NCBI RefSeq assembly: GCF_014200435.1
Contig: NZ_JACHBR010000001.1
Location: 4,371,501 to 4,435,500, forward strand
Length of the DNA: 64,000 nt
From: Sphaerisporangium krabiense
Lineage (GTDB): Bacteria; Actinomycetota; Actinomycetes; Streptosporangiales; Streptosporangiaceae
Reading direction: 5' to 3'
Shown here: piece after piece, positions 18,605 to 49,142 of the stretch
Layout: the number at the start of each line of letters is the position of its first letter
How positions within the stretch are numbered: the first letter of the stretch is position 1
Made by a program: the position numbers and the translations under genes
The notes under the pieces: model-generated
Told to the model about the DNA's origin: nothing
What the model saw: only the letters and a program-made list of their open reading frames with translations
The model's database searches: none

Positions 18605-19123
18605 ATGACGACGACGACCGTCCCGAAGTTCGAGGAGCTCATCGCCGGCACCGAGTTCTCGGCGATCCACCTGGAAATGCGTGACATGTACACCCCCAAG
18701 GGCGCGGTGTACGTGGACTGGAAGGCCGGAATCCCCATCGAGTACGACCGGCACGGCGGCTGGGTCGAGCTGGTCGGCGCGGCCGTGGCCAGGGGAGTGG
18801 ACTGGCGGCGCGCCCGCGTCGTCTCCGAGCCGGTCACCGACTTCATCGAGTACGAGTACGAGACCGCGACCATCGTGAACGTCCCCGCCGGGGAGAACGT
18901 CCGGTGGCTGCCGCGCCGCCTCGCCTCCGACCTGATGCTGCCCGGCAACGACTTCTGGGTGTTCGACAACCGCCTGGTCAGGTTCACCCATTTCGCCGGC
19001 GACGGGTCCTACGGCCCGCACGAGCTGAGCGACGACCCGGCGCTCGTGAAGAACTGCGTCGACGCCTTCGAGGCCGTCTGGGCGCGCGCGATCGACCACA
19101 AGGACTACACCCCCGTCGTCTGA
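18605..19123 (+). CDS. DUF6879-family protein
   Basis: A 172-residue actinobacterial protein of the DUF6879 family. It is recognised by FEELIAGTEFSAIHLEMRDMY near the N-terminus, the RVVSEPVTDFIEYEYE centre, AGENVRWLPR and the DFWVFDNRLVRFTHF strand. The function is unknown. In other actinomycetes these genes often sit beside an XRE-type regulator, which is absent here. The start at ATG 18605 has GGAGG five bases upstream. A gap of 148 bp separates it from the globin gene, so it may or may not belong to the following operon. Confidence 0.85.
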   Translation: MTTTTVPKFEELIAGTEFSAIHLEMRDMYTPKGAVYVDWKAGIPIEYDRHGGWVELVGAAVARGVDWRRARVVSEPVTDFIEYEYETATIVNVPAGENVRWLPRRLASDLMLPGNDFWVFDNRLVRFTHFAGDGSYGPHELSDDPALVKNCVDAFEAVWARAIDHKDYTPVV

Positions 19124-19271: not shown

Positions 19272-19796
19272 ATGCCATCCAAAGCCGTCCCCGAGCACGA
19301 CGGAAAGGTGCTCATCGTCGCGGACGAGGGAGTGAGACCGGCCGAGCACATGACGCCGGCCGAGGTGGACAAGAAGGTCGGCGACTTCTACGCCGGCATC
19401 GGCGGCGAACCCTTCTTCCGGGCGCTGGCCACGCGGTTCTATGAGCTGGTGTCACGGGACGAGGTGCTGGTCCCGCTGTTCCCCGTGCACGACTGGGCCA
19501 GGCACGCCGAGCGCCTGACCGCCCACTACGTCCAGATCTACGGGAACAACGACCTCACGGCCGCGTGGGACCCGCGCCTGCACCAGGCGCACAGCCACAT
19601 GCTCATCACCCGGGAGCAGCGCCTGCGCTGGCTCGCGCTGATGAAGGAGGCCGGCGCCTCGCTGGGCGCGCCCGAGCCGCACTTCACCGAGTTCCTCACC
19701 ATCATGAAGATCGCCAGCGGCGAGATGATGGCCGTGTCCCGGGGCGCCGCCATCGCGCGGGGCGTCCGGTTCCACTGGGACGGCACGCCGCGATGA
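19272..19796 (+). CDS. group II truncated haemoglobin
   Basis: A 174-residue protein with a 40-residue N-terminal extension and then a 2/2 globin domain (FYAGIGGEPFFRALATRFYELV, the VLVPLFPVHDWARHAERL region, and HQAHSHMLIT with the proximal His, followed by the WLALM helix). Group II trHbs bind O2 or NO and can detoxify NO or supply oxygen. ATG 19272 is preceded by GGGAG; longer in-frame starts have no such site. It overlaps the flavin monooxygenase gene by ATGA, so the two are co-translated. An oxygen- or NO-related role in that enzyme's pathway is a reasonable inference. Confidence 0.88.
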   Translation: MPSKAVPEHDGKVLIVADEGVRPAEHMTPAEVDKKVGDFYAGIGGEPFFRALATRFYELVSRDEVLVPLFPVHDWARHAERLTAHYVQIYGNNDLTAAWDPRLHQAHSHMLITREQRLRWLALMKEAGASLGAPEPHFTEFLTIMKIASGEMMAVSRGAAIARGVRFHWDGTPR

Positions 19797-21481
19797 CGCC
19801 GCGGACACCGAACCGCGTCGCCGTCGTCGGCGCGGGCGCCGCGGGCGCGTTCTTCGCCCTCGAACTGTCACGGCTGCGCCCCGGCATCGCCATCGACCTG
19901 TACGACAGGGACGAGAGGTCGGCGGGCGCGGGCATCGTGATGTCGTGGGAGTTCGCCGAGCGGGTGCGCGCCGTGCACCCGCGCGCGTTCGCCCTTCCCC
20001 CGGAGGCGATGGCCACCTGGGACCGCACGCTCACCCTGGCCGGCGAGGACCGCGTCTGGTCGGGCGCGTACGGCATGTTCGGCCTGACCCGCCGGGTCTT
20101 CCACGAGCACGTGCGGGCGCTGGCGTGCGAGCCGCCCACCGTGACCTTCCACGCCCGGGACGTGACCGCCGACCCGGGCGGCCATGACCTGCTGGTCGTC
20201 GCGGACGGCGCGAACAGCCGCCTGCGCGCGGCCCGCGACCACGGCACCGTCACCACGCACGGCCGCACGGTGTTCCTGTGGATGAGCACGCCCGCGGTGC
20301 TGGAGCCCACGTTCGTCCTCAAGTGCGTCGGCGCCGGCGTGCTGATCGTGCACGCCTACCCGCACGGCGCCGCCGAGAGCACCTTCATCGTCGAGGCCGA
20401 CCCGGACACGCTGCGCTCGCGCGGCCTGCTCGACCGGCCGCTGCACGAGGTCGAGACGATCCTCGCCGGCGTCTTCCGCGACGAACTGGACGGCGCGCCG
20501 CTCACCGCGCGGACCGCGGGGTGGCGGCCCTTCCCGACGGTCGTCAACGAACGCTGGCACCACGGCCGCGCCGTCCTGGTCGGCGACGCCGCGCACACCG
20601 TCCACTTCTCCGTCGGCTCGGGCACCGCCCTGGCCATCGACGACGCGTTCTGCCTGGCCAGATCGCTCGCCGCCTGCGACTCCACCGACGACGCCCTCGC
20701 CGAGTACGCGCGGACCCGGGCGCCCGTGGCGGCGGAGGCGCAGGCCGAGGCCGGGGACAGCCAGCGCTGGTTCGAGACGCTGAGCCGCCGCGACCGGCTG
20801 CGCGGCGCCCAGACGGTCTTCGCGCTGCGCAGCCGCAGGGACGCCAACACCTTCGCGCGGCTCGGCGCCCGCGACCCGGAGTTCGTGGCGCGGGCCATGG
20901 AGACGTACGCGGGCCGTCCCACCCGGGCCGAGCCGGTGGACGTGCCGCTCACCGTGGGGGACCTCAGGCTGCGCACCCGGATGGTCGCCGCGGGCCTGGA
21001 GCGGGACGCGCCCGTGCTGCTCTTCCCCACGGCGACCGGCGACCGCCCGTGCGTGGTGACCCGCGACGCGCCCGCTCCGCCCGCTCCGCCCTGCGTGCTG
21101 GTGACCCCGGACGGCACCGCCGACCCGCGGGAGCTGCGCGCCGCGGGGGCGTCGGCCGTCGGGCTGCTGGTGTCCGGGGACGAGCCCGTGGCGGACACGC
21201 CGGCGCGCGGGTTCGACTTCGTCGCCGTCCCCGCCGAGACGGGCGCGGGGCGGATCGCCAGGACCGGGCTCGCCGACCGCGTCCGCCACGAGAGCGACCT
21301 GCCCGTGCTGCTGCTGTCGGCGCAGCGGCTGTCCCGCGACGAGATCAACACGTTGCTGCTGGCCGGGCGCGTGGACATGGTCGCGTGCGTGGACGCGCGC
21401 GACCTCTCCCGCGGCGCGGATTCCGGGGACGGATCGCGCATTCTGGAAGATGCCGCCGTGCGAAGCGGGCCGGAAGAGTGA
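19793..21481 (+). CDS. FAD-dependent aromatic monooxygenase, salicylyl/anthraniloyl-CoA hydroxylase type with eroded OYE domain
   Basis: A 562-residue protein. The N-terminal FAD fold has GAGAAGAFFALEL, and GDAAHTVHFSVGSGTALAIDDA matches salicylyl-CoA 5-hydroxylase and 2-aminobenzoyl-CoA monooxygenase closely. Those enzymes hydroxylate CoA-bound aromatics. The C-terminal third (about 400-540) still shows strand patterns of the Old-Yellow-Enzyme barrel found in the anthraniloyl-CoA enzyme (ASAVGLLVSGDE, LPVLLLSAQRLSRDEINTLLLAGRVDMV). It is shorter than the full barrel and lacks recognisable FMN-binding motifs, so it is probably non-catalytic. It is co-translated with the globin (ATGA) and followed by an acyltransferase, exporter and deacetylase. 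Confidence 0.85.
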   Translation: MTPRTPNRVAVVGAGAAGAFFALELSRLRPGIAIDLYDRDERSAGAGIVMSWEFAERVRAVHPRAFALPPEAMATWDRTLTLAGEDRVWSGAYGMFGLTRRVFHEHVRALACEPPTVTFHARDVTADPGGHDLLVVADGANSRLRAARDHGTVTTHGRTVFLWMSTPAVLEPTFVLKCVGAGVLIVHAYPHGAAESTFIVEADPDTLRSRGLLDRPLHEVETILAGVFRDELDGAPLTARTAGWRPFPTVVNERWHHGRAVLVGDAAHTVHFSVGSGTALAIDDAFCLARSLAACDSTDDALAEYARTRAPVAAEAQAEAGDSQRWFETLSRRDRLRGAQTVFALRSRRDANTFARLGARDPEFVARAMETYAGRPTRAEPVDVPLTVGDLRLRTRMVAAGLERDAPVLLFPTATGDRPCVVTRDAPAPPAPPCVLVTPDGTADPRELRAAGASAVGLLVSGDEPVADTPARGFDFVAVPAETGAGRIARTGLADRVRHESDLPVLLLSAQRLSRDEINTLLLAGRVDMVACVDARDLSRGADSGDGSRILEDAAVRSGPEE

Positions 21482-21533: not shown

Positions 21534-22652
21534 GTGACCACGACGACACCCGGCCCCGTCGCGCGGACCGCCACGCGGTTCGAGGTCCGCGAGGGGCTGC
21601 CCGCCGGCTGGGACGCCCACATGGGGGACGCCCCGGCGAGCCTGAGCGCCCGCTGGATCGGCCTGGCCCAGGCGAGGATCCCCGGCGGCCTGCGCACCTT
21701 CGGCCTCTACGAGGACGACCGGATCGCCGTCGCGTTCTGCGGCGGCGTCCAGGACGCCCCCACCGGCCACCCGAGGTTCGACCCGTACGCGGTGCTCAGC
21801 GGCGCGTCGGCGACCGACGACGTGGCGCTCGCCGCGCGGGGCCCGCATCCGTGGAAGGGCGCGGACCCGGCCGAGGTGTTCCCCTGCTGCCTGGTCATGT
21901 TCCCCAACTACGAGACCGCCCCCGCCGGGCACGGCGCCCGCGACCACGCCCTCGCGGGCCGGTTCGTCGCCGGCCTGGACGCCTGGGCCAGGGACAACGG
22001 CGCCCGCAGCGTCGCCTACCTGTACCTGCGGCCCGACTACCCCGAGTTCGCCGGCGCGCTGCGCGAGGCCGGGTACACGACGATCCCCATGGTCGAGCGC
22101 TGCGACATGCGCGTCACCTGGACCGATTTCGACGGCTACCTCGCGACGCTCAGCCGCAACCGGCGCACGGCCGCGCGCCGCGAGCTGCGCGAGACCCGCG
22201 AGCGCGGCATCGTCGTCGCCGAGCGCCGCGTCACCGACGAGGAGCCCGAGCTGGTGCGGCTGCGCTGCAACCTGATCGCCAAGTACGGCGGCACGCCCGA
22301 CCCCGAGCGCGAGGCGTTCTCGCTGCGCTACCTGCGCGACCACTTCGGCGCCGGCGACCTGCTGCTCATCGAGGCACGCAGGGACGGGGACCTACTGGCC
22401 TTCAGCCTGTTCATCCGGGACGGGGCGAGCTGGTCGGTGCTCATGAACGGCACCGACTACGACGACCCCGACGCCTCGTTCACCTACTTCACCACGATGT
22501 TCTACCGCCCCGCCCAGCTCGCCCCGGCGGCCGGCGTGCGCACCATCGGGTACGGCATCGGCACGATCGACGCCAAGCGTTCCCGTGGATGCCGGACCAG
22601 CACGCTCCAGGCCGCCGTCCGGGCGATCGACCCGATGGGAGTGACGACGTGA
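21534..22652 (+). CDS. GNAT/FemAB-like acyltransferase
   Basis: A 372-residue protein with two GNAT-like halves, as in the FemAB/BioF2-like (peptidogalycan) acyltransferase group. The second half has RNRRTAARRELRETRERG and the strand-helix LLLIEARRDGDLLAFSLFIRDG. It transfers an acyl or aminoacyl group to an amine; the donor may be acyl-CoA or aminoacyl-tRNA. The GTG start at 21534 follows GGGAGG. The stop overlaps the MFS gene start (GTGA). In this operon it would modify an amine made available by the PIG-L deacetylase, or the product of the flavin enzyme (inference). Confidence 0.8.
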   Translation: MTTTTPGPVARTATRFEVREGLPAGWDAHMGDAPASLSARWIGLAQARIPGGLRTFGLYEDDRIAVAFCGGVQDAPTGHPRFDPYAVLSGASATDDVALAARGPHPWKGADPAEVFPCCLVMFPNYETAPAGHGARDHALAGRFVAGLDAWARDNGARSVAYLYLRPDYPEFAGALREAGYTTIPMVERCDMRVTWTDFDGYLATLSRNRRTAARRELRETRERGIVVAERRVTDEEPELVRLRCNLIAKYGGTPDPEREAFSLRYLRDHFGAGDLLLIEARRDGDLLAFSLFIRDGASWSVLMNGTDYDDPDASFTYFTTMFYRPAQLAPAAGVRTIGYGIGTIDAKRSRGCRTSTLQAAVRAIDPMGVTT

Positions 22653-23917
22653 CCGCCACCGCGCCCCCGGAAACCCCCACCCCGCCCGCCCCGGGCAGGT
22701 TCGCCCGGCTGCTGCCGCCGCCCGGGCCCGGCCGGATGCTCGTCGTCTGCTCGGCGGTGGCGAGCGTCGGCAACGGCCTCTACCTGTCGGGGTCGGCCAT
22801 CTACTTCATCCGCGAGGTCGGCCTGTCGTCCGGGCAGGTCGGGCTCGGCCTGTCGCTGGTCGGGCTGATCAGCCTGCCGATCAACGTGCCGCTCGGCTAC
22901 CTCGCCGACCGGTTCGGCCCGCGCGAGGTCACGATCCTGACCACGCTCACCAAGGTCGTGGCGCTCATCGCCGCGATGTTCGTCGCGAACTTCCCGATGT
23001 ACCTGCTGGTGGTCGGCGTGCTCGGCGTCGCCGACAGCGGCGGCCAGGTCGCCAGGGGCGCGCTGATCTCCGGCCTCATGGGCAGGGAGGGCAGGGTCGC
23101 GCTGTCGGCGTACCTGCGCTCGGTGTTCAACGCGGGCTTCACGCTGGGCGTGCTCGGCGCGGGCATCGTCATCGCCTTCGACACCCGGCCCGCGTACCTG
23201 TCGCTCATGCTCGGCAACGCCGCCGCGATGGTGCTGGCCGCGATCCTCTACCTGCGGCTGCCCCGGGTGCCCGGCACGCGCGGCGAGAAGAAGCGCGAGG
23301 GCGGCGGCTGGCTCGCGCTGCGCGACTGGCCCTACCTCGCGGTCGCCCAGGTCGCCGGCATCGCCCGCCTCGGCCCCACGCTGGCCGCCGTCGGCCTGCC
23401 CGTGTGGCTGGTCACCCGGACCGACGCGCCCCGCGCGCTGGCCGCCTGGCTGTACGCGATCAACACGCTGATGGTCGTGCTGCTCCAGGTCCGCGCCGCC
23501 CGCGGCGCCGACACGGTGCCCGGGGCCGCGCGCCTGCAACGGTGGACGTTCCTCGGGCTCGCGGGCGCGTGCGTCGTCACCGGCCTCGCCTCCGGGGCGC
23601 CGCCCCTCCTCGCCACCACGATCATGGTGTTCGGCATGGTCGTCTTCACGCTGGGCGAGATCTGGGGCGAGGGCGCCCGCTGGGGCCTGCGGTACGAGCT
23701 GGCCCCCGACCACGCGCAGGGCCAGTACGGCGGCATGTTCTCGACCGGCGACGCGCTGGCCGCCATCGCCGGGCCCACGCTGGTCACCGTCCTGCCCGAA
23801 CGCTTCGGCCTCGGCGGGTGGATCGCGCTGGCGGTGATCTTCCTCGTCGGGCTCGCCGCGAGCGGCCCGGTGATCCGCTGGGCCGAGCGCACCCGGCCGC
23901 GGTTCGTCACCGCATAG
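22649..23917 (+). CDS. MFS transporter
   Basis: A 422-residue integral membrane protein with about 12 predicted helices. It has the MFS motif A between helices 2 and 3 (GYLADRFGPREV), a central basic loop (TRGEKKREGG) and a strongly hydrophobic pattern throughout. It is translationally coupled to the acyltransferase by GTGA. It probably exports the product of the 19.3-24.7 kb operon. The substrate is not inferable from the sequence. Confidence 0.88.
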   Translation: MTATAPPETPTPPAPGRFARLLPPPGPGRMLVVCSAVASVGNGLYLSGSAIYFIREVGLSSGQVGLGLSLVGLISLPINVPLGYLADRFGPREVTILTTLTKVVALIAAMFVANFPMYLLVVGVLGVADSGGQVARGALISGLMGREGRVALSAYLRSVFNAGFTLGVLGAGIVIAFDTRPAYLSLMLGNAAAMVLAAILYLRLPRVPGTRGEKKREGGGWLALRDWPYLAVAQVAGIARLGPTLAAVGLPVWLVTRTDAPRALAAWLYAINTLMVVLLQVRAARGADTVPGAARLQRWTFLGLAGACVVTGLASGAPPLLATTIMVFGMVVFTLGEIWGEGARWGLRYELAPDHAQGQYGGMFSTGDALAAIAGPTLVTVLPERFGLGGWIALAVIFLVGLAASGPVIRWAERTRPRFVTA

Positions 23918-23953: not shown

Positions 23954-24685
23954 ATGCCGGAGCCGTACGCCCCCATGCCCGACGACTGGGGGCGCGCGCT
24001 CGCGGTCGTCGCGCACCCGGACGACCTGGAGTACGGCCCGGCGTGCGCGGTCGCGGCCTGGACCGCGGCGGGCAAGGACGTCGCCTACCTCATCGTGACC
24101 CGGGGGGAGGCGGGCATCGACTCGCTGCCCCCCGAGCAGGCCGGGCGGGTGCGCGAGCGCGAGCAGATCGAGGCCGCCGCGATCGTCGGCGTGGAGCGGG
24201 TGGAGTTCCTCGGCCACCGGGACGGCGTCGTCGAGTACGGGCTGCCGCTGCGGCGGGACATCGCCGCGGCGATCCGCCGGTTCCGGCCGGAGGTCCTGAT
24301 CGGGCTCAACCACCACGAGCGGTGGCGCAGCGGCGACTGGAACTCCCCCGACCACCGCAACGTCGGCGTCGCCCTGCTCGACGCCGCCGGCGACGCGGGG
24401 AATCGCTGGATATTCCCCGAACTGGCGGACCAGGGCCTCGCGCCGTGGCCGGGCGTGCGCTTCGCGGCCATGGGCGGCTCGCCGCACGCGCGCCACGCGG
24501 TCGACGTCTCGGGCAGCCTGGACAAGGGCGTCGCCGCGCTGGAGGCCCACCGCTCCTACCTCCCCGCGCTCGGCCCGGAGCATCCGATGTCCGACGCGCG
24601 CGGGTTCCTGGAGGCCAAGACCCGCAGGTTCGGCGAGAGATTCGACGGGGTTGCCTGCATCGCCTTCGAGGTCATCGGGATCTGA
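23954..24685 (+). CDS. PIG-L/LmbE-family zinc deacetylase
   Basis: A 243-residue metal-dependent N-deacetylase. It shows the AHPDD zinc motif (about 21-25), TRGEAG, and the later His of SPDHRNVG, which are the three positions that coordinate zinc in MshB and GlcNAc-PI deacetylase. These enzymes remove N-acetyl groups from sugar-linked amines. MshB itself is usually elsewhere and longer, so I do not assign the mycothiol role. A 36-bp gap follows the MFS gene. It is the last gene before a perfect 19-bp hairpin and so the end of the operon. Confidence 0.9.
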   Translation: MPEPYAPMPDDWGRALAVVAHPDDLEYGPACAVAAWTAAGKDVAYLIVTRGEAGIDSLPPEQAGRVREREQIEAAAIVGVERVEFLGHRDGVVEYGLPLRRDIAAAIRRFRPEVLIGLNHHERWRSGDWNSPDHRNVGVALLDAAGDAGNRWIFPELADQGLAPWPGVRFAAMGGSPHARHAVDVSGSLDKGVAALEAHRSYLPALGPEHPMSDARGFLEAKTRRFGERFDGVACIAFEVIGI

Positions 24686-25006: not shown

Positions 25007-25384
25007 TCAGTTGAGCTGCCGCTTGTCCCACACCTTGGGCAGGTCCCAGACCTCGGACACGTCCCAGACGGGCACGCGGTCGAAGACCCGGGACTCGTCC
25101 CAGACCTCGGGGAGGCGTCCGGGCGTGAACGCGTCCCACACCGTGAGGCCGTCCCACACGTCGTGGGCGTCCCAGACCCTCAGGCCGTCCCAGACCTCGA
25201 GGGGCTCCTCCGCGGAGTCCCAGACCCGGTAGGCGTCCCAGACCTCCAGCGCGTCCCAGACGTCGAAGGCGTCCCAGGTCTCGTAGTGGTCCCAGACCTT
25301 CAGGTGGTCCCAGACCTCCTGCCGGTCCCAGACCGTTGGGTCGCGGCCGAGGGCGACGCCCGTGGAGATGACGGACACAGTCAT
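25007..25384 (-). CDS. unrecognised VWD-hexapeptide-repeat protein
   Basis: A 125-residue protein. A 17-residue N-terminal segment (MTVSVISTGVALGRDPT) is followed by 16 units of (V/T)-(W/F)-D-x-x-x that run to the C-terminus. Thirteen units are 6 residues; the seventh is 10, the eleventh 12 and the last 8. V-W-D is invariant but for one T-W-D and one V-F-D. Position five is often L, Y or F. There is no signal peptide, membrane helix or Cys. ATG 25384 has AAGGGA about 8 bp upstream, which fixes the start. I do not recognise the family. It could be a beta-solenoid-like repeat protein or a multicore precursor peptide. It is unrelated to von Willebrand D domains. It stands alone between a convergent deacetylase and a divergent S33 peptidase. 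Confidence 0.8.
   Translation of the reverse strand: MTVSVISTGVALGRDPTVWDRQEVWDHLKVWDHYETWDAFDVWDALEVWDAYRVWDSAEEPLEVWDGLRVWDAHDVWDGLTVWDAFTPGRLPEVWDESRVFDRVPVWDVSEVWDLPKVWDKRQLN
25010..25333. repeat. 18-bp period repeats coding VWDxxx
   Basis: Sixteen in-frame units. On the coding strand nearly every unit holds GTCTGGGAC, while the three following codons vary. The conserved and free positions fit selection on the V-W-D core rather than simple DNA slippage. Confidence 0.85.
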
Positions 25385-25640
25385 TTCGCGATCCCTTTCC
25401 CTTCTGTTTCCCGTTCGACTTCCTTGCGTTGAGTCAACTGTGCGCCCCGGCACGGTCCCTGTTCCAGATGGACGACGTTCAGGAAGTTGTCCGCGAAGAA
25501 CCGCTTCCTGCCAGCGGCACGCTGGACCTTTCGGCGCGCACGTTATTCAATGGCGCTTCGCGGGGCACGGAGCGTACGGTCGGGCGCGTGGACGGCGTGC
25601 GGACAGGGTGGCGGGCCGTCCGACGGAAGGAATCCACCAC

Positions 25641-31806: not shown

Positions 31807-32366
31807 CCGATCCCAGCACCCCGGGCACGCCCGGCGTCCCGGAGGAGGCCGGAGACCTCGCCGCGCGCGTGTGGCGCGAGATGCGGGCGATGGTGCTGGA
31901 CCTGCACGACCGCCGCAGACAGGTCTGCGCCGCGCTCGGCATGAGCTTCATCAGGGCCAAGGCCCTGCGCCGCCTGGCCGCCGGGCCGGCGACGCTGCGG
32001 CGGCTGGCCGCCGACCTGGCCACCGACGCGCCGTACACCACCGTGATCGTGGAGGATCTGGTGCGGCGCGGGCTGGTCGTGCGCGAGGTGGACCCGGGCG
32101 ACCGCCGCCAGAGGATCGTCACGATCACCGAGGCGGGCGCGCGGGCCGCGGCGCTCGCGGACGCGATCCTGAGCGAGCCGCCCGCACCGCTGCGCGCCCT
32201 CGACCCCGCCGACCTCGCGACCCTGCACCGCGTCCTGCGCACCCTCACCGGCCCGCACGGCCCAGGCGGTGTGGCCGGCCCGGACGGCTCGGACGACCGG
32301 GACGGCGCGGACGTTCCCCGTGATTCGGATGGTCCGCCGACCCCGCTCAGTGGTCGCGGTGGGTGA
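31803..32366 (+). CDS. MarR-family regulator
   Basis: A 187-residue winged-helix protein with a helix-turn-helix at about 55-85 (TLRRLAADLATDAPYTTVIVEDLVRRG), the wing DPGDRRQRIVTIT and a disordered Gly/Asp-rich tail. It is coupled to the exporter gene by ATGA and is its likely repressor. The last 20 bp overlap the convergent polyprenyl synthase gene. Confidence 0.88.
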   Translation: MTDPSTPGTPGVPEEAGDLAARVWREMRAMVLDLHDRRRQVCAALGMSFIRAKALRRLAAGPATLRRLAADLATDAPYTTVIVEDLVRRGLVVREVDPGDRRQRIVTITEAGARAAALADAILSEPPAPLRALDPADLATLHRVLRTLTGPHGPGGVAGPDGSDDRDGADVPRDSDGPPTPLSGRGG

Positions 32367-33381
32367 TCAGGTGGGCCAGCGCGCGCAGTTCGGTGGCGGC
32401 CCCGGGCGTGGGTGAGGCCGCCGCGAGGTGGCCCAGGGCCTCGCGCAGCAGCTCGCCGGCCTGCTGCGTGCTCCAGGCGCGCCCGCCCGCCAGCTCGATC
32501 AGCTCGGCGGCGCGCACCAGGTCCGGCCCGGCGGGCGGCTCCTCCCTGCCGTACAGGGCGGCCAGCTCGTCCCCTGCCGGGGACCCGGAGGACAGCGCGG
32601 CGACCACGGGCAGCGACTTCTTGCGGTTGCGCAGATCGGAATGGATGGGCTTGCCGGTGACGGCGGGGTCGCCCCAGATGCCGAGCAGATCGTCCACGAA
32701 CTGGAACGCCAGGCCGAGGCGGTCGCCGAACGCCCGCAGGCGCTCCACCCGCTCGGGCGCGGCCCCGCCGAACAGCGCGCCGAGCGCGCAGGAGGCCCCG
32801 AGGAGCGCGCCGGTCTTGGACTCGGCCATGCTCAGGCACTCCTGGAGGCTGACGTCGCCGCGCGTCTCGAAGGAGGTGTCGGCGCCCTGCCCGTCGATCA
32901 GGTCGAGGACGGTCGCGCCGAGCAGGCGGCCCCCTTCGGGGGCGGCGGGATGGCCGCTGGCGGCGAGCACGTCGAAGGCGAGCGCGAGCAGGGCGTCACC
33001 GGCCAGGATCGCCGGGCTGACCCCGAACAGGCTCCACGCCGTCGCCCGGTGCCGCCGGGTCAGGTCGCCGTCCATCACGTCGTCGTGCAGGAGCGAGAAG
33101 TTGTGCACCAGCTCGACGGCGACCGCGGCGGGCACGGCCGTGCCGGCGTCCGCGCCGACGGCCTCGGCGGACAGCAGGGCCAGCGCCGGGCGGACGGCCT
33201 TGCCCCCGCCGCCCACGGCGGCGGCGCCGTGCCGGTCCAGCCAGCCGAAGTGGTAGCCCGCGACGCTCCGCATCGACGGGGGCAACGACTCGACGGCGCC
33301 CCGCAGCGCCGGACCGGCCTGGTCGCGGCTCCAGGCCAGCACTTCGTGTGCCTGACGCCCCGTGGTGGTCACTTCGACCAT
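32347..33381 (-). CDS. polyprenyl diphosphate synthase, probable family 2 encapsulin cargo
   Basis: A 344-residue trans-isoprenyl diphosphate synthase that condenses allylic and isopentenyl diphosphates. The first aspartate-rich motif is intact (LLHDDVMDGD). The second reads FQFVDDLLGIWGD, with Gly in place of the last Asp of DDxxD, as in the cargo-type synthases linked to family 2 encapsulins. The GKPIHSDLRNRKKS loop is present. ATG 33381 follows GGAAGGGG. It lies downstream of two encapsulin shell genes on the same strand. There is no long disordered N-terminal loading segment from this start; a start at 33477 would add 32 Pro/Gly/Arg-rich residues but has no ribosome-binding site. Product chain length is unknown. 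Confidence 0.88.
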   Translation of the reverse strand: MVEVTTTGRQAHEVLAWSRDQAGPALRGAVESLPPSMRSVAGYHFGWLDRHGAAAVGGGGKAVRPALALLSAEAVGADAGTAVPAAVAVELVHNFSLLHDDVMDGDLTRRHRATAWSLFGVSPAILAGDALLALAFDVLAASGHPAAPEGGRLLGATVLDLIDGQGADTSFETRGDVSLQECLSMAESKTGALLGASCALGALFGGAAPERVERLRAFGDRLGLAFQFVDDLLGIWGDPAVTGKPIHSDLRNRKKSLPVVAALSSGSPAGDELAALYGREEPPAGPDLVRAAELIELAGGRAWSTQQAGELLREALGHLAAASPTPGAATELRALAHLITHRDH

Positions 33382-33553
33382 GCGCGCCCCTTCCCGCCCG
33401 GCACGCCCGGGAGGCCGGGTACGCCGGGAAAGCTTGTCGTGGACTTCATCACACGCGCCCGGGCCGATCGCTGCCATGTCATCGCGAACCTGGTGCCCTC
33501 ACTGAGCGGCTGAAGTGGCCGGGCGCGTCCCGTTCTCCTGACGGCCGGGCCGG

Positions 33554-34957
33554 TCAGTGGCCGATCTCGACGTTCTCCAGGATGCCGAGGGCGTCGGGGA
33601 CCAGGACCGCCGCGGAGTAGTACGTGGAGACCAGGTAGGAGACGACCGCCTGCTCGTTGACGCCCATGAACCGGACCGACAGCCCGGGCTCGTACTCCTC
33701 CGGCAGGCCCGTGTACCACAGGCCGATCACGCCCTCGTCCTCCTGCCCCGTGCGCATGACCAGGATCGACGACGTGCGGCTCTCGCTGATCGGGATCTTG
33801 TCGCAGGGCAGCAGCGGGACGCCGCGCCAGGACGCCACCGTCCGGCCGTCGACCTCGGTGGTCTGGGGGTAGACGCCGCGGCGGCTGCACTCGCGCCCGA
33901 ACGCGGCGATCGTCAGCGGATGGGCCAGGAACAGGTGCGACCGCCTGCGCCGGCAGAGGAGCTCGTCGAGGTCGTCGGGGGTTGGGGGGCCGGTGCGGGT
34001 GTGGATGCGTTGTTTGAGGTCGGCGTTTTGGAGGAGGCCGAAGTCGGTGTTGTTGATGAGTTCGTGTTCTTGGCGTTCGCGGAGGGCTTCGATGGTGAGG
34101 CGGAGTTGTTGGTGGGTTTGGTTCATGGGGTGGTTGTAGAGGTCGGCGATGCGGGTGTGGATGCGCAGGATGGTTTGGGCGACGGAGAGTTCGTATTCGC
34201 GGGGGGTGGTTTCGTAGTCGACGAAGGTGCCGGGGAGGTGGGGTTCTCCGGTGTGGCCTGAGGTGATGGTGATGGCGGCTTCGCCGTGTTTGTTCTGGGG
34301 GTGGCGGGGGGTGTTCTGGTGGTTTTGGAGGTGGGTGGCGAGGGTGAGGTTGATGGCGAGGAGTTGTTGGAAGTCTTGGCGGGTGAGGGTGAGGGTGGTG
34401 GTGGGGGTGACGGCTTGGATGGTGTGTTCCCAGGTGGCGTCGCCGGTGGTGGTGAGGGTGTGGTCGCCGTAGTGGTCGCCGTCGGCGAGGGTGGCCAGGA
34501 TGGTGTTGTCGCCGTAGGGGCCGGTGCCGATCTTGTTGACTTTGCCGTGGGCGATGAGGATGAGGCGGTCGGCGGGTTGGCCGGTTTGGGTGATGGCTTC
34601 GCCGGTTTGGTGGTGGTTTTGGGTGAAGCGTTGGGCGAGGGCGTGGAGGGTGTCGTCGTCGTCGAAGTGGCGGAGGAGGGGGAGTTCGCGGAGTTCTTGG
34701 GGGATGACGTGGATGTCGGTGCCTTGGCTGGTGAAGCTGAGGCGGCCGTCGCCCAGGGCGTAGGACAGGCGGCGGTTGACGCGGTAGGTGCCGCCGCTGG
34801 TGTGGATCCAGGGGAGCATGCGCAGCAGCCAGCGCGAGGAGATGTTCTGCATCTGGGGCTGCGATTTGGTCGTCGTGGCCAGGTTGCGGGCGGCCGCGGT
34901 GGCCAGTGCCTGCTGGGCCTGGTTCTCGCCCGGCGTCATATCGGTTGTCTCGGTCAC
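33554..34957 (-). CDS. family 2B encapsulin shell protein, copy A
   Basis: A 467-residue HK97-fold shell protein with an inserted cyclic-nucleotide-binding-like domain (about 92-212). Typical parts are [26 protein letters not shown] near the N-terminus and the C-terminal [14 protein letters not shown] plus [16 protein letters not shown]. The nucleotide pocket lacks the phosphate-binding Arg ([16 protein letters not shown]), so cNMP binding is doubtful. GTG 34957 is chosen because homologues begin near TETT; an ATG at 34939 is the alternative. Codons from about residue 78 to 331 differ from the rest of the gene (CTC, CAA, GAA preferred), and this part is almost identical to copy B. It probably co-assembles with copy B around the prenyl synthase. 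Confidence 0.92.
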
Positions 34958-34975
34958 AACCCACACCACCAATCC
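33963..34975. repeat. 1,013-bp tract nearly identical to 35461-36473 (copy A)
   Basis: Aligned by eye without gaps at an offset of 1,498 bp, it differs from the second copy at only two bases (one Q/H and one L/P change). It starts in the codons for DDLDELL and ends 18 bp upstream of the GTG start. The flanking parts of the two genes differ clearly. This points to recent gene conversion or duplication. Confidence 0.92.
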
Positions 34976-35048
34976 GTGGAAAGGACAAGGGAAGGACGCC
35001 GTGGCGCGGGCCCGGTGCGGGCCCGCGGGCGGCGTCGGCGGTCGTGGC

Positions 35049-36455
35049 TCAGTGGCCGATCTCGACGTTCTCCAGGATGCCGAGGGCGTCGGGGACCAGG
35101 ACGGCGGCCGAGTAGTAGGTGGAGACCAGGTAGCTGATGATGGCCTGGTCGTTGACGTTCATGAAGCGGACCGACAGGCCGGGCTCGTACTCGTCGGGGA
35201 TGCCGGTCTGCCACAGGCCGATGACGCCCTGGTCCTGCTCGCCGGTGCGCATCAGCAGGATGCTGCTGGTGCGGCTGTCGGTGACGGGGATCTTGTTGCA
35301 GGGGAGCAGCGGGACGCCGCGCCAGGAGGGGATGGCGTGGCCGTGCAGGTCGGTGCTCTGCGGGTAGACGCCGCGGCGGCTGGCCTCGCGGCCGAACGCG
35401 GCGATGGTGAGCGGGTGCGCCAGGAAGAACGCCGGCTCCTTCCACACGGTCGCCAGCAGGTCGTCGAGGTCGTCGGGGGTTGGGGGGCCGGTGCGGGTGT
35501 GGATGCGTTGTTTGAGGTCGGCGTTGTGGAGGAGGCCGAAGTCGGTGTTGTTGATGAGTTCGTGTTCTTGGCGTTCGCGGAGGGCTTCGATGGTGAGGCG
35601 GAGTTGTTGGTGGGTTTGGTTCATGGGGTGGTTGTAGAGGTCGGCGATGCGGGTGTGGATGCGCAGGATGGTTTGGGCGACGGAGAGTTCGTATTCGCGG
35701 GGGGTGGTTTCGTAGTCGACGAAGGTGCCGGGGAGGTGGGGTTCTCCGGTGTGGCCTGAGGTGATGGTGATGGCGGCTTCGCCGTGTTTGTTCTGGGGGT
35801 GGCGGGGGGTGTTCTGGTGGTTTTGGAGGTGGGTGGCGAGGGTGGGGTTGATGGCGAGGAGTTGTTGGAAGTCTTGGCGGGTGAGGGTGAGGGTGGTGGT
35901 GGGGGTGACGGCTTGGATGGTGTGTTCCCAGGTGGCGTCGCCGGTGGTGGTGAGGGTGTGGTCGCCGTAGTGGTCGCCGTCGGCGAGGGTGGCCAGGATG
36001 GTGTTGTCGCCGTAGGGGCCGGTGCCGATCTTGTTGACTTTGCCGTGGGCGATGAGGATGAGGCGGTCGGCGGGTTGGCCGGTTTGGGTGATGGCTTCGC
36101 CGGTTTGGTGGTGGTTTTGGGTGAAGCGTTGGGCGAGGGCGTGGAGGGTGTCGTCGTCGTCGAAGTGGCGGAGGAGGGGGAGTTCGCGGAGTTCTTGGGG
36201 GATGACGTGGATGTCGGTGCCTTGGCTGGTGAAGCTGAGGCGGCCGTCGCCCAGGGCGTAGGACAGGCGGCGGTTGACGCGGTAGGTGCCGCCGCTGGTG
36301 TGGATCCAGGGGAGCATGCGCAGCAGCCAGCGCGAGGAGATGTTCTGCATCTGGGGCTGCGATTTGGTCGTCGTGGCCAGGTTGCGGGCGGCCGCGGTGG
36401 CCAGTGCCTGCTGGGCCTGGTTCTCGCCCGGCGTCATATCGGTTGTCTCGGTCAC
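35049..36455 (-). CDS. family 2B encapsulin shell protein, copy B
   Basis: A 468-residue paralogue of copy A with the same order of HK97 parts and inserted cNMP-like domain. It is nearly identical over residues 1-330 and diverges after it: [18 protein letters not shown] here versus [17 protein letters not shown] in copy A, then scattered changes to the shared end [11 protein letters not shown]. It is first of the three-gene operon; a 91-bp gap separates it from copy A. Two-shell family 2B loci are known in actinobacteria, and mixed shells have been reported, so the C-terminal differences may set how the two subunits pack or which cargo they bind (inference). Confidence 0.92.
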
Positions 36456-41783: not shown

Positions 41784-42860
41784 ATGGCGACGACGGCGAA
41801 GCAGACGGGGAACGCGACGCGGGAGCGGGACGAACCCGTCGTCCACATCCTCTGGATCAACGCCGGGATGAGCTGCGACGGCGACTCGGTCGCGCTCACC
41901 GCGGCGCTCCAGCCGCCCATCGAGGACATCGTCCTCGGCGCCCTGCCCGGGCTGCCCAAGGTGGAGGTCCACTGGCCGCTGATCGACTACTGCAGCGGGC
42001 CCATGCAGGGCGCCGACGCCATGATCGAGTGGTACTTCCTGGCGGCCGAGGGCGGCCTGGAGCCGTTCGTGCTGGTCGTCGAGGGGTCCATCCCGAACGA
42101 GTCGATCAAGCAGGAGGGCTACTGGTCCGGGTTCGGCAACAACCCCGAGACCGGACAGCCGATCACCCTGCCCGAGTGGCTGGACCGGCTCGCGCCGGAG
42201 GCCACGGCGGTGATCGCGGCGGGCACCTGCGCGACGTACGGCGGCATCCACGCCATGGCGGGCAACCCGACCGGCTCGATGGGCCTGGCCGACTACCTCG
42301 GCTGGGAGTGGCGGTCCAAGGCGGGCATCCCCATCGTCAACGTGCCGGGCTGCCCGATCCAGCCGGACAACATGTCCGAGACCCTGCTGTACCTGCTCTA
42401 CCAGCTCAACGGGCAGGCGCCGATGATCCCGCTGGACGAGGCGCTGCGCCCGACGTGGCTGTTCGGCAAGACCGTCCACGAGGGCTGCGACCGGGCCGGG
42501 TACTACGAGCAGGGGCAGTTCGCCGTCGAGTACGGCTCGCCGCTGTGCCTGGTCAAGATCGGGTGCTGGGGGCCCGTCGTCAAGTGCAACGTCCCCAAGC
42601 GCGGGTGGATGAACGGGATCGGCGGCTGCCCGAACGTCGGCGGCATCTGCATCGCCTGCACGATGCCCGGCTTCCCGGACAAGTTCATGCCGTTCATGGA
42701 CGAGCCGCCGGGCGCCCGCGTGTCCTCGACGGTCAGCACCATGTACGGCGGCGTCATCCGCAGGCTGCGCGACATCACGCTCAAGACCGTCGACAAGGAG
42801 CCGAAGTGGCGGGCCAAGGGCCGCGCGCTGCTCACCGGATACAAGGCCCCGTGGAGCTGA
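41784..42860 (+). CDS. hhyS: [NiFe]-hydrogenase small subunit, group 1h (high affinity)
   Basis: A 358-residue iron-sulfur subunit that carries electrons from the active site through three clusters. The proximal cluster motif is C31-D-G-D34: the second Cys of the usual CxxC is Asp, a mark of the oxygen-tolerant group 1h (Ralstonia AH type) enzymes. Further Cys ligands are in AGTCATYGG, VNVPGCPIQPDN, CDRAGYY, PLCLVKIGCWGP, CNVPKRGW, GGCPNVGGICIACTMPGFPDKF. There is no Tat signal or C-terminal membrane anchor. The enzyme oxidises H2 at atmospheric levels to support persistence in starved or sporulating actinomycetes. One base separates it from the large-subunit gene. Confidence 0.95.
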   Translation: MATTAKQTGNATRERDEPVVHILWINAGMSCDGDSVALTAALQPPIEDIVLGALPGLPKVEVHWPLIDYCSGPMQGADAMIEWYFLAAEGGLEPFVLVVEGSIPNESIKQEGYWSGFGNNPETGQPITLPEWLDRLAPEATAVIAAGTCATYGGIHAMAGNPTGSMGLADYLGWEWRSKAGIPIVNVPGCPIQPDNMSETLLYLLYQLNGQAPMIPLDEALRPTWLFGKTVHEGCDRAGYYEQGQFAVEYGSPLCLVKIGCWGPVVKCNVPKRGWMNGIGGCPNVGGICIACTMPGFPDKFMPFMDEPPGARVSSTVSTMYGGVIRRLRDITLKTVDKEPKWRAKGRALLTGYKAPWS

Positions 42861-42861
42861 G

Positions 42862-44646
42862 ATGACCACCTCGAAGGAGCGGAAGAGCGACCTGGTCGAG
42901 ATGGCCTGGGACCCGATCACGCGCATCGTCGGCAGCCTGGGCATCTACGCCAAGATCGACTTCGCGCAGAAGAAGGTCGCGGAGTGTCACAGCACGTCGT
43001 CGATCTTCCGCGGCTACAGCATCTTCATGAAGGGCAAGGACCCCCGCGACGCCCACTTCATCACCAGCCGCATCTGCGGCATCTGCGGCGACAACCACGC
43101 GACGTGCTCGGTCTATACGCAGAACATGGCCTACGGCGTGCGCCCGCCCGCGCTCGCCGAGTGGATCATCAACCTCGGCGAGTGCGCCGAGTACATGTTC
43201 GACCACAACATCTACCAGGAGAACCTGGTAGGGGTCGACTACTGCGAGAAGATGGTCCGCGAGACCAACCCCGGCGTCATGGAGCTCGCCGAGCGCACCG
43301 AGTCGCCGCACGCCGCCGAGCACGGCTACCGCACGATCGCCGACATCATGCGCTCGCTCAACCCGATGGAGGGCGAGTTCTACCGCGAGGCGCTGGTGAT
43401 GAGCCGCCTGTCCCGCGAGATGTTCTGCCTGATGGAGGGACGGCACGTCCACCCCTCGACGCTGTACCCCGGCGGCGTCGGCACGGTCGCGACCGTGCAG
43501 CTCTTCACCGACTACCTGACCCGGCTCATGCGCTACGTCGAGTTCATGAAGAAGGTCGTGCCGATGCACGACGACCTGTTCGACTTCTTCTACGACGCGC
43601 TGCCCGGCTACGAGCAGGTCGGACGGCGCCGCGTGCTGCTCGGCTGCTGGGGCGCGCTCAACGACCCCGCGTACTGCGACTTCACCTACGAGAACATGAA
43701 CGCCTGGGGCCACAAGATGTTCATCACCCCGGGCGTCATCGTCGACGGCAGGCTCGTCACCAACGACCTGGTCGACATCAACCTCGGCATGCGCATCCTG
43801 CTCGGCAGCTCCTACTACGAGGACTGGCAGGACCAGGAGCCGTTCGTCACCCACGACCCGCTCGGCAACCCGGTCGACATGCGGCACCCGTGGAACCAGC
43901 ACACGATCCCGCGCCCGCAGAAGCGCGACTTCAAGGACAAGTACAGCTGGGTGATGTCGCCGCGCTGGTTCGACGGCGAGAACATGCTCCCGCTGGACAC
44001 CGGGGGCGGCCCGATCGCCCGGCTGTGGTCGACGGCGCTGAACGGCAAGGTGGACATCGGCGTCGTGAAGGCCACCGGCCACAGCGTGCGGATCACGCTG
44101 CCGAAGACGGCCACGCTGCCGGAGAAGACCCTGGAGTGGTCGATCCCGCAGTGGAACGGCGAGCCGCTGTCCAACACGCTGGAGCGCAACCGGGCCAGGT
44201 CCTACTTCCAGGCGTACGTCGCCGCGTGCGCGGTGTACTTCACCGAGCAGGCCCTCGACGAGGTCAGGCGGGGCCACAGTCAGACGTGGGAGCCGTTCGA
44301 GGTGCCGGACGAGGCCATCTCCTGCGGGTTCACCGAGGCCGTGCGCGGCGTGCTGTCCCACCACATGGTGATCAGGAACGGCAGGATCGCCAACTACCAC
44401 CCGTATCCGCCGACGCCGTGGAACGCCAGCGTCCGCGACAGCAACGGCGTCCCCGGCCCGTACGAGGACGCCGTGCAGAACACGCCGATCTTCGAGGAGA
44501 ACCCGCCGGGCGACTTCAAGGGGATCGACATCATGCGCACGGTCCGCAGCTTCGATCCCTGCCTGCCCTGCGGGGTGCACATGTACCTCGGCGGCGGCAA
44601 GGAACTGCGCAAGATTCACAGTCCCCATGCGTTCGGTGCGAGCTGA
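42862..44646 (+). CDS. hhyL: [NiFe]-hydrogenase large subunit, group 1h (high affinity)
   Basis: A 594-residue catalytic subunit. The nickel-iron ligands are in the L1 motif R70-I-C-G-I-C-G and the L2 motif DPCLPCGVH (565-573). A 21-residue tail follows His573 and would be removed by the maturation protease encoded at 47829 after nickel insertion. The long insertions (LYPGGVGTVATVQLF, SPRWFDGENMLPLDTGGG) are typical of group 1h. The end of the gene overlaps the next one by 20 bp. Confidence 0.96.
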   Translation: MTTSKERKSDLVEMAWDPITRIVGSLGIYAKIDFAQKKVAECHSTSSIFRGYSIFMKGKDPRDAHFITSRICGICGDNHATCSVYTQNMAYGVRPPALAEWIINLGECAEYMFDHNIYQENLVGVDYCEKMVRETNPGVMELAERTESPHAAEHGYRTIADIMRSLNPMEGEFYREALVMSRLSREMFCLMEGRHVHPSTLYPGGVGTVATVQLFTDYLTRLMRYVEFMKKVVPMHDDLFDFFYDALPGYEQVGRRRVLLGCWGALNDPAYCDFTYENMNAWGHKMFITPGVIVDGRLVTNDLVDINLGMRILLGSSYYEDWQDQEPFVTHDPLGNPVDMRHPWNQHTIPRPQKRDFKDKYSWVMSPRWFDGENMLPLDTGGGPIARLWSTALNGKVDIGVVKATGHSVRITLPKTATLPEKTLEWSIPQWNGEPLSNTLERNRARSYFQAYVAACAVYFTEQALDEVRRGHSQTWEPFEVPDEAISCGFTEAVRGVLSHHMVIRNGRIANYHPYPPTPWNASVRDSNGVPGPYEDAVQNTPIFEENPPGDFKGIDIMRTVRSFDPCLPCGVHMYLGGGKELRKIHSPHAFGAS

Positions 44647-45208
44647 GCCGCGCGGCGCCGCGCGCCGTGAGGACGGGCCCGCGCTCGACGTGCGGCGGGC
44701 GGGCGAGCGCGCCGAGGCGCTGATCGACGAGCTGGCCGCGCTCGCCGACCCGGGTGCCAGGGACAAGGCCGAGGAGCTGGTGCGCCTGCTCGTCGGCCTG
44801 TACGGCGCCGGGCTGGAAAGGATGCTCGGCGCCGTGGTGGAGTGCGACGCGGCCGAGGTGCTGCGCAGGTTCACCGCCGACGAGGTCGTCTCCGGCCTGC
44901 TCGTCCTGCACGACCTGCACCCGCTCGGCACCGACGAGCGCGTCCGCGCGGCGCTGGACGGCGTGCGCGGGCGCGTCGGGGACGGCGTCGAACTGCTCGG
45001 CGTGGACCGCGGCGGCGGGCAGGACGTCGTACGGCTGCGGATGGCCGGCCAGGGGTGCGCCTCCACGCGGGCCGCGGTCGCCGGGGCCGCCGAGCGCGCG
45101 GTCCTGGCCGCCGCGCCCGAGGTGGCGCGCGTGGAGGTCGAGCAGGCGGCCGAGGCGCGGCCGCTGCTGCAGATCGGGCGCAGGCCGCCCGCGGAGCCCG
45201 CGCCGTGA
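44627..45208 (+). CDS. NifU-domain-like hydrogenase accessory protein
   Basis: A 193-residue protein whose C-terminal half resembles the NifU/Nfu scaffold domain (VRAALDGVRGRVGDGVELLGVD, VRLRMAGQGCAS). The scaffold needs C-x-x-C; here only one Cys (GQGCASTRAA) remains, so cluster assembly on it would differ from the classical case. The N-terminal half is helical. It starts inside the part of hhyL coding for the cleaved tail and ends in GTGA shared with the DUF5947 gene, so it is tightly coupled. Similar genes recur in group 1h clusters. Confidence 0.75.
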   Translation: MRSVRAEPRGAARREDGPALDVRRAGERAEALIDELAALADPGARDKAEELVRLLVGLYGAGLERMLGAVVECDAAEVLRRFTADEVVSGLLVLHDLHPLGTDERVRAALDGVRGRVGDGVELLGVDRGGGQDVVRLRMAGQGCASTRAAVAGAAERAVLAAAPEVARVEVEQAAEARPLLQIGRRPPAEPAP

Positions 45209-45852
45209 CCGCCAGGCCCGCGGGCCCGCCGGGGCTGCGCCGCTTCCGCGAGCCCCCGCCGCCGGAGACGCCCCGCTGCGAGATGTGCGCCGAGCCGCTG
45301 GAGGAGCGGCACGGCCACGTGGTGAACGTCCAGACCAGGGCCCTGCTGTGCACGTGCAGGGGCTGCTCGCTGGTCATGCCCGGCAGCGGCCCGGGGGCGC
45401 GCTACCGCGGCGTGCCCGAGCGCCACCTGCTCCTTCCGGGGTTCCGGCTGACCGCGGCCGACTGGGAGGCCCTGCAGATCCCGGTACGCGCCGCGTTCTT
45501 CTTCCCCCACTCGGTGCTCGGCCGGTACGTGGCCTTCTACCCGAGCCCCGCGGGCGCCGCCGAGTCGCTGCTCCCGTTGGACGCCTGGGACGACGTGCTC
45601 GCCGCCAACCCCGAGGCGCCCCGGCCGCTGCCGGACGTCGAGGCCTACCTCGTCGACCGGGGCCCCGAGCGCCTCACCTGCCACCTGGTGCCGATCGACG
45701 CCTGCTACGAGCTGGTCGGGCTCGTGCGCCTGCACTGGAAGGGGTTCCACGGCGGCCCGGAGGCGTGGCGGGCCATCGACGGCTTCTTCGCCGAGATCCG
45801 CGCCCGCGCGGAGGCCGAGGCCGGGGTCTACGGGGAGGGCCGTCGTGCCTGA
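45205..45852 (+). CDS. DUF5947-family hydrogenase-cluster protein
   Basis: A 215-residue protein with an N-terminal metal-binding-like cluster of Cys residues: CEMCAEP (C-x-x-C), then LLCTCRGCSLVM (C-x-C-x-x-C). A mixed alpha/beta part follows (GRYVAFYPSPAGAAES, LTCHLVPIDACYELVGLVRLHWKGFHGG). It is known only from group 1h hydrogenase loci and their relatives; the role is unknown, perhaps zinc or iron-sulfur binding in electron transfer or assembly. The GTG start is shared with the stop of the NifU-like gene. Confidence 0.85.
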   Translation: MTARPAGPPGLRRFREPPPPETPRCEMCAEPLEERHGHVVNVQTRALLCTCRGCSLVMPGSGPGARYRGVPERHLLLPGFRLTAADWEALQIPVRAAFFFPHSVLGRYVAFYPSPAGAAESLLPLDAWDDVLAANPEAPRPLPDVEAYLVDRGPERLTCHLVPIDACYELVGLVRLHWKGFHGGPEAWRAIDGFFAEIRARAEAEAGVYGEGRRA

Positions 45853-46504
45853 GACACGGGAGACGCCCGCCGGGTCCGAAATCGGGTTCCGGTGCCTGGG
45901 CGTGCGCGCCGACCCGCACGCGGCGTCCCCCACGCTGTGCTTCCGCCTCGGCGTCCACGAGCCCGTCGGCGAGTCGGTGCACGCGATCGCGCTGCGCGTG
46001 CAGATCAGGATCGAGCCGGCGCGCCGCCGCCACGACCCCGCCGAGAGCGAACTGCTGGCCGACCTCTTCGGGCACCCCTCCCGGTGGGGCGACACGCTCA
46101 GGCCCTTGCAGTTCGCCACCGTCTCGCTCATGGTGCCGCGGTTCACCGGCTCCACCGAGGTGGACCTGCCCGTCCCGTGCAGCTACGACCTGGAGGTCGC
46201 CGCGGGCAAGTACTTCGCCTCGCTCGACGACGGGGAGGCGCCCCTGCTGCTGTTGTTCAGCGGCACGGTGTTCGCCAGGTCCGGCGAGGGGTTCACCGTG
46301 CGCCAGGTGCCGTGGCACTGCGAGGCGCGGCAAGGGCTGCCCGTGGCGGTGTGGCGGGAGCTGATCGACCGCTACTTCCCCGGCAGCGGCTGGCTGCGCC
46401 TGCACCGCGACACGCTGCGCGCGCTGCAACGGTTCAAGTCCGACCGCACCCTCGCCACCTGGGACGAGACGGTCGAAGCGCTGCTGAAGGAGGCGCGCCG
46501 ATGA
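45845..46504 (+). CDS. DUF6084-family hydrogenase-cluster protein
   Basis: A 219-residue, mainly beta protein (HAIALRVQIRIEPARRR, LMVPRFTGSTEVDLPVPCSYDLEV, LLLLFSGTVFARS, VPWHCEARQGLPVAVWREL). It is of the DUF6084 family found beside DUF5947 in group 1h clusters. No catalytic motif is seen. The GTG start at 45845 overlaps the previous gene by 8 bp, and the stop overlaps the next start (ATGA). Confidence 0.83.
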   Translation: MPETRETPAGSEIGFRCLGVRADPHAASPTLCFRLGVHEPVGESVHAIALRVQIRIEPARRRHDPAESELLADLFGHPSRWGDTLRPLQFATVSLMVPRFTGSTEVDLPVPCSYDLEVAAGKYFASLDDGEAPLLLLFSGTVFARSGEGFTVRQVPWHCEARQGLPVAVWRELIDRYFPGSGWLRLHRDTLRALQRFKSDRTLATWDETVEALLKEARR

Positions 46505-48515: not shown

Positions 48516-48517
48516 TC

Positions 48518-49136: not shown

Positions 49137-49142
49137 GGCGCG

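Follow-up and report, generated by a model that had tools for sequence, protein, structure and literature searches.

The window, by which we mean the whole 64,000-nucleotide stretch of Sphaerisporangium krabiense DNA analysed here, contains a gene whose product is built of repeated Val-Trp-Asp (VWD) triads and a set of six neighbouring genes, referred to below as the cassette. The features are as follows.

18605..19123, plus strand: DUF6879 protein of 172 aa (PF21806, E 6e-50), present in 11 of the 12 loci with enough sequence
19272..19796, plus strand: truncated hemoglobin, group II-like, 174 aa (PF01152, E 1e-12; PDB 2bmm, 4uzv, 1ngk)
19793..21481, plus strand: FAD monooxygenase of 562 aa, VioD-like over about residues 8-352 (PF01494; VioD 3c4a, E 1e-46)
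21534..22652, plus strand: FemAB/GNAT-like transferase of 372 aa (PF13480, PF04339)
22649..23917, plus strand: predicted MFS exporter of 422 aa (PF07690)
23954..24685, plus strand: PIG-L family hydrolase of 243 aa with an invariant HPDD motif (PF02585)
25007..25384, minus strand: VWD-repeat gene, putative precursor of 125 aa with 16 units and 12 further intact relatives
25392..25401, minus strand: purine-rich ribosome-binding site GGGAAAGGGA of the VWD gene, read from printed upstream sequences and also found in the close relative G008 (L104)

The VWD gene is single-copy in its source genome and runs from an ATG at 25384 to a stop at 25007, with GGGAAAGGGA directly upstream of the ATG, in agreement with the ribosome-binding site claimed in the initial annotation. 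Translation of the minus strand also bears out the described open reading frame of 125 aa with 16 units (14 VWD, one TWD and one VFD) and 15 Trp, every one of which lies within a unit. The hexad units are present, but the clean hexad said to extend to the very end is not, because two linkers have 7 and 9 residues; unit spacing is six apart from one 10 and one 12, in a list that includes one incidental AFD in a linker. Similarly, the segment once called leader-like does comprise 17 residues before the first unit, but its sequence is not conserved beyond the closest relative. In 20,000 shuffles of the residues of the protein, at most five VWD triads were obtained, against the 14 observed. The protein has no match in Pfam or NCBIfam, and its AlphaFold model (mean pLDDT 35.6, pTM 0.16) contains neither strands nor any confident structure.

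Relatives were found by several routes. A back-translated VWDxxxVWDxxxVWD pattern, searched over the GTDB representatives, gave 70 loci, nine of which are relatives: six from Streptomyces, two from Microbispora, including one orphan, and one from a Pseudonocardiales MAG. Cassette genes lie in the extended stretches of eight of these, the remaining one being the orphan. The other 61 loci were sorted by translation, tblastn and linker identity, L050 alone being opened in detail, and were set aside as tandem repeats, subtilase-like tails or unrelated frames by the author's reading; L050 was judged a chance match after the detailed look, and G220/L014 was dropped for stops in its VWD frame. Genome scans revealed two more species with a VWD gene in the genus of the window (three of 11 in total). 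A search with the globin added G070, from another genus of the same family, and the linear Streptomyces plasmid NZ_CP108708.1, whose precursor had already been annotated as a hypothetical protein (WP_331729494.1). The G070 precursor has 30 residues and was missed by the three-unit pattern because of its shorter middle spacing. There are thus 13 intact precursors and one orphan, the intact hosts being three members of Sphaerisporangium, with the rest in Microbispora, a third genus of Streptosporangiaceae, Streptomyces and the Pseudonocardiales MAG. Gene boundaries of unannotated loci come from a custom gene caller, and some starts (e.g., L119, L120 and L123) were set by hand. As a side observation, C-terminal tandem VWDNTL/VWDETI repeats occur in proteins of Acidobacteria-type MAGs (L018, L035, L040, L045, L067 and L070), which we take to be subtilase-like, with no cassette genes in the DNA covered.

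The 13 precursors contain 138 units, of which 132 have an exact VWD; Val is retained in 136, Trp in 135 and Asp in 136, the variant units (TWD, SWD, VFD, VWE and VRE) having been recognised by eye. Around the triad, much else varies. The precursors have 30-125 aa and 4-16 units, with spacings of 5, 6, 7, 9, 10 and 12, that is, spacers of 2-9 residues between cores. Spacing 6 accounts for 99 of 124 counted intervals, which hold a few artefacts of incidental AFD and missed variant units (in L124, the VWE unit lies inside the interval of 12, and in L104 the 9+3 is an artefact around SWD). Linkers are often charged and have no fixed cleavage site; those of three residues favour E/R/Q, then L, then K/E/P, with no position fixed. 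The N-terminal segments, 6-17 residues long, differ between groups. Codon usage for the triad is itself mixed, with 94 GTC, 38 GTG and 2 GTT for Val and 134 GAC and 3 GAT for Asp (the latter including one incidental AFD). Val and Asp codons therefore vary synonymously, and the triad is kept as protein sequence against a background of shifting linkers, spacing and copy number. The product is thus ribosomally encoded, from an ORF with a ribosome-binding site and with protein-level conservation in 13 genes, and has the repeated core and variable spacers of a multicore precursor.

Closely related loci illustrate both the freedom and the limits of this constraint. Streptomyces L121 has 8 units and L122 has 16, with enzymes mostly 93-97% identical; the less well matched genes are the monooxygenase (86-89%) and a TrmO-like neighbour (91%). 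Between the window and G008, the VWD gene has 9 changes in 293 nonsynonymous sites and 5 in 82 synonymous sites, whereas the globin gene has 4 in 395 and 14 in 127. Constraint on the whole VWD gene is thus milder than that on the globin in this pair, which we count against our best explanation; eight amino acids differ, two of them in triads (T/S and F/W).

Two simple accounts of the repeat can be weighed here. That 61 of the 70 pattern loci are tandem repeats or unrelated proteins, by the author's reading, would suit a neutral DNA repeat that is in frame by chance. The initial annotation had itself asked whether homologues lack the repeats or have broken frames; on inspection they carry the repeats, and all 13 intact relatives have an open frame and the protein-level triad, their linkers differing in both length and sequence. 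A chance repeat was accordingly rejected for the VWD family and has practically no probability left. The second account, the first of two ideas offered originally, gives the protein a structural role as a beta-solenoid or a self-assembling Trp/Asp ladder, as the predominant spacing of six might suggest. Neither the regular repeat length nor the confident strands of a solenoid were found: copy number and spacing vary too widely, a complete member has just 30 aa, the window protein is modelled with a low pLDDT and no strands, and the linkage to biosynthetic genes described below is constant. This structural role was also rejected, and we hold it to be highly improbable.

The cassette genes were defined with the custom gene caller and all-against-all blastp, families being called on the window copies. 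Each of the 13 loci has globin and FAD monooxygenase genes near the VWD gene, the distance from precursor to globin never exceeding 5.3 kb, and this linkage persists across different gene orders and cluster contexts. The stop of the globin gene and the start of the monooxygenase gene overlap by four bases in every locus (ATGA in 12, GTGA in one), which suggests that the production of the two proteins is coupled. FemAB, MFS and PIG-L genes occur in 12 of 12 loci with enough sequence, the locus left out of this count being that of the Pseudonocardiales contig, which breaks off within the monooxygenase gene. DUF6879 is absent from 28.5 kb around the plasmid precursor. In G070, for which the two end pieces of about 59 kb of one contig were covered and the middle left out, the cassette is complete and split across both ends. 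Conserved, linked tailoring enzymes, a general property of RiPP systems, are therefore present, and the oxygenase/acyltransferase/exporter operon noticed at the outset beside the VWD gene belongs to this conserved cassette, of which the truncated globin, DUF6879 and PIG-L genes had been left unnamed. The divergent S33 peptidase gene that had been proposed as a partner was rejected: an S33-like gene was detected by tblastn in only one of the 13 fetched stretches, the near-identical G008 locus, and the best Pfam match of the window copy is Abhydrolase_1, the S33 model scoring under its cutoff. There is no protease among the six recurring families, and a PADLOC search of three proteins gave no match. 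A TrmO/UPF0066-like methyltransferase gene also recurs beside the monooxygenase gene (L148:7920-8270, L151:16012-16464, and L119, L121 and L122), the family model having been run on the L151 copy alone.

Gene orientation bears on a further possibility, a Trp-rich leader peptide that senses charged tRNA-Trp and acts as an attenuator. In Streptomyces, the VWD ORF, small and with many Trp codons, directly precedes the enzyme genes and shares their strand, as an attenuator would. In the window, G008 and G009, however, the VWD gene is on the strand opposite the globin-to-MFS genes, and Val and Asp are conserved as much as Trp. On these two grounds the attenuator was rejected, and we find it barely credible.

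The presence of the globin follows that of the VWD gene. With a profile cutoff of E at most 1e-30, the globin was matched in five of 297 genomes of the family Streptosporangiaceae, four of which match the VWD pattern, while the fifth, G070, carries the 30-residue precursor. In a sample of Streptomyces, the genus of G364, two of 382 genomes have the globin, and the same two are the sole carriers of a four-unit VWD pattern among 392. All seven globin-positive genomes thus own a VWD gene. In a class-wide sample, one genome of 394 was matched, that of the window alone. From the other side, the six Streptomyces genomes and the MAG that were found first through the VWD pattern all carry the globin.

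The orphan gene of Microbispora corallina (G116/L106) represents a natural loss. Its right-hand neighbours are 61-70% identical to those of the intact Microbispora locus, and its left flank shares one weaker gene (47% identical). No cassette enzyme was found in the 19.9 kb around the VWD gene (about 10 kb on each side), and the genome has no FemAB match and, in place of the pathway globin, a 65-bit paralogue only. In this orphan, VWD is exact in 5 of 14 units, by a hand count of units picked by eye after looking; we put no weight on a Fisher test of this count, which treats the units as independent. The decay of the triad in this one genome agrees with a constraint that was relaxed once the enzymes were lost.

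The globin is nearest to the group II truncated hemoglobins listed above. All 11 aligned sequences share His107 and Trp120, and in 10 of them and in two later loci (12 of 13) His78 stands where the T. fusca globin 2bmm has Ala; Phe70 stands where 2bmm has Tyr. We take His107 to be the proximal His, Trp120 a G8-like position and His78 a distal-pocket position. Family, His107, Trp120 and PDB matches together place the protein among group II truncated hemoglobins. For the monooxygenase, VioD is by far the best PDB match, all others having E-values of 2e-10 or worse. Among NCBIfam models, a salicylyl-CoA 5-hydroxylase/oxidoreductase model scores 231 bits and VioD 138 bits, both under their cutoffs (620 for the VioD equivalog), so the enzyme is a relative and not a member of VioD. 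Because the best family score is not that of VioD, its substrate need not be an indole. The intact motifs of the cassette enzymes are presumably FAD-, heme- and Zn-binding, those of the monooxygenase being FAD-binding.

These enzymes admit a kynurenine route, in which the globin would act as a peptide Trp 2,3-dioxygenase, the PIG-L enzyme would deformylate the product and the monooxygenase would hydroxylate the aminobenzoyl side chain. Each of the 12 loci that offer enough sequence has all three, the top family score of the monooxygenase is to a benzoyl-CoA-type hydroxylase, kynurenine 3-monooxygenases are among its weak PDB matches, and His replaces the Ala of the T. fusca globin at the presumed distal-pocket position in nearly all globins. 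Against this, the PDB matches of the globin are hemoglobins only, with no Trp dioxygenase, and VioD is a far better match to the monooxygenase than the kynurenine monooxygenases are (1e-46 versus about 5e-9). We consider the kynurenine route unlikely, if worth keeping in mind.

The reading that we favour, and hold to be probable from the gene comparisons above, is that of a leaderless multicore precursor in which the Trp of each VWD triad is oxidised by the globin/flavoenzyme pair, after which the units are excised, tailored and exported. We infer that the peptide is the substrate and Trp the modified residue. The triad would be recognition element and substrate at once for the cassette enzymes, because of the constraint on V, W and D, its loss where the enzymes are gone and the constant globin-monooxygenase pair. 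Oxidation of Trp is a natural guess because it is the only fixed aromatic residue and because VioD acts on an indole. The globin and the VioD-like monooxygenase, made together from overlapping genes, may thus oxidise every triad Trp, most simply by hydroxylating its indole ring. Cellular proteases would then cut the chain in its variable linkers, the FemAB-like enzyme could acylate or aminoacylate the released Trp-derived units, the PIG-L hydrolase might trim them, and the MFS protein would export the final units. Excision, acylation, trimming and the joining to polyketides considered below are suggested by gene content alone. Of the second idea in the initial annotation, a multicore precursor for Trp modification, the core and the neighbouring operon hold as the best-supported reading, and the S33 gene falls away.

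Alternatively, the VWD protein may not be consumed and could act as a flexible scaffold or carrier, either bringing the enzymes together or bearing intermediates on its Asp side chains; a repeat of 4-16 units could serve as a scaffold or sink. It is multivalent, has no confident fold and is free to vary in copy number, as such a role would allow. So strict a Trp (135 of 138) is not obviously needed for it, though, and no peptide-carrier partner was recognised among the family matches of the cassette, none of which is such a partner to our knowledge. We judge a scaffold or carrier to be quite unlikely.

The multicore precursor with oxidised Trp would be RiPP-like, the RiPP label itself being putative. 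Pfam and NCBIfam scans and alignments revealed no RRE, dedicated protease or conserved leader in the cassette, which counts against the favoured reading; the RRE models were matched by none of the six cassette enzymes of the window. An RRE is not known from every RiPP class. The DUF6879 protein is modelled poorly, with a mean pLDDT of 52.7, and the portion available of an RRE survey does not include DUF6879 (PMC12710340). Among the open-licence literature matches listed, there is no description of such a precursor, and nothing on VWD hexamer words or DUF6879.

The cassette lies in three larger cluster contexts, namely Streptomyces chromosomes, G070 and the Streptomyces plasmid. All six chromosomal loci of Streptomyces have a FabF-like synthase, an ACP and a PigE homologue beside the precursor, and five of them also hold a PigD homologue within the stretch (blastp clustering in both cases). 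Family models, run on L122 only, place PigE above its cutoff and the contig-cut PigD below. In G364 and G365, large genes that are PKS-like by eye lie further out and are 83-88% identical between the two. The core genes of G070 are near a gene that is PKS-like by eye and a Trp_halogenase-family protein, its end pieces holding PKS-like and other biosynthetic genes, and an ACP/aminomutase group is near the plasmid precursor. The stretches around the cassette in the genus of the window and in intact Microbispora have no PigD/PigE or PKS-like genes. For Streptomyces and G070, attachment of the unit to a polyketide-type product of the surrounding genes is probable. It is conceivable, although we lean against it, that the cassette represents a ribosomal pathway of a new class. 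A leaderless poly-(Val-Trp-Asp) protein would then act as a disposable store of Trp units, which a hemoglobin turned enzyme would oxidise together with a flavin monooxygenase, and different polyketide-type assembly lines would take up the excised units. If true, it would be a RiPP-like class that lacks a leader, takes as substrate a three-residue motif present in up to 16 copies and employs a hemoglobin in tailoring. Such a class would offer a way into a catalytic function of truncated globins, and would suggest how ribosomal peptides could supply units to polyketide clusters. Because precursors as short as 30 aa (G070) and 46 aa (Microbispora) occur naturally, mass spectrometry could test it directly.

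Several known systems resemble parts of this proposal. Dikaritins (ustiloxin and phomopsin) have one precursor with many short cores (YxIx) and oxidative tailoring of an aromatic residue (PMC7329392). As described there, they are fungal, Kex2-processed and made by DUF3328 enzymes on a Tyr-Ile core, whereas the VWD system is bacterial and has a globin and a FAD enzyme; no DUF3328 was found among the cassette proteins and no dibasic site between the units of the window protein, and VWD precursors in general have no regular dibasic sites between units, unlike Kex2-processed dikaritins. The multicore microviridins (graspetides) share a bacterial multicore precursor served by one processing enzyme (PMC5934393). 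They are macrolactones formed by an ATP-grasp ligase, and the cassette matches hold no such family. In pearlins of the ammosamide type and in crocagin, peptide-bound Trp becomes a small alkaloid-like product, as proposed here. A PEARL enzyme appends Trp to a carrier in pearlins, whereas the crocagin core is a single tripeptide. The cassette proteins match no PEARL-type family. VioD, the violacein indole hydroxylase, provides the nearest solved structures to the cassette monooxygenase and acts on a free pathway intermediate. Compared with VioD, the cassette enzyme has about 140-210 extra C-terminal residues and is gene-coupled to a globin.

Other features of the window were observed in passing. 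Two tandem family 2B encapsulin shell genes (32347-36437; 760 and 767 bits, cutoff 400) adjoin a polyprenyl transferase gene whose product scores above the cutoff of the family 2 encapsulin cargo model, and homologues of this region are also in the G008 stretch. Further along (41784-51373), genes for the small and large subunits of a [NiFe] hydrogenase precede maturation genes, among them HypD and an AIR-synthase-like gene, presumably of the HypE type, and downstream of the hydrogenase genes lies a PEP-synthase-like protein with PPDK_N and PEP-utilizers domains (53406-55079). About 170 kb before the window in the same genome (L161:465-14098, on G000:C1), a second FemAB-like pair lies beside a 47-aa ORF ending in TTCTDCVPNY, with an M16 peptidase, nucleotidyltransferase-like and NDK-like proteins, a methyltransferase-aminotransferase fusion and an M28 peptidase as neighbours. 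The gene order of L162 (G006) is similar, and the L161 region looks like another, uncharacterised peptide pathway.
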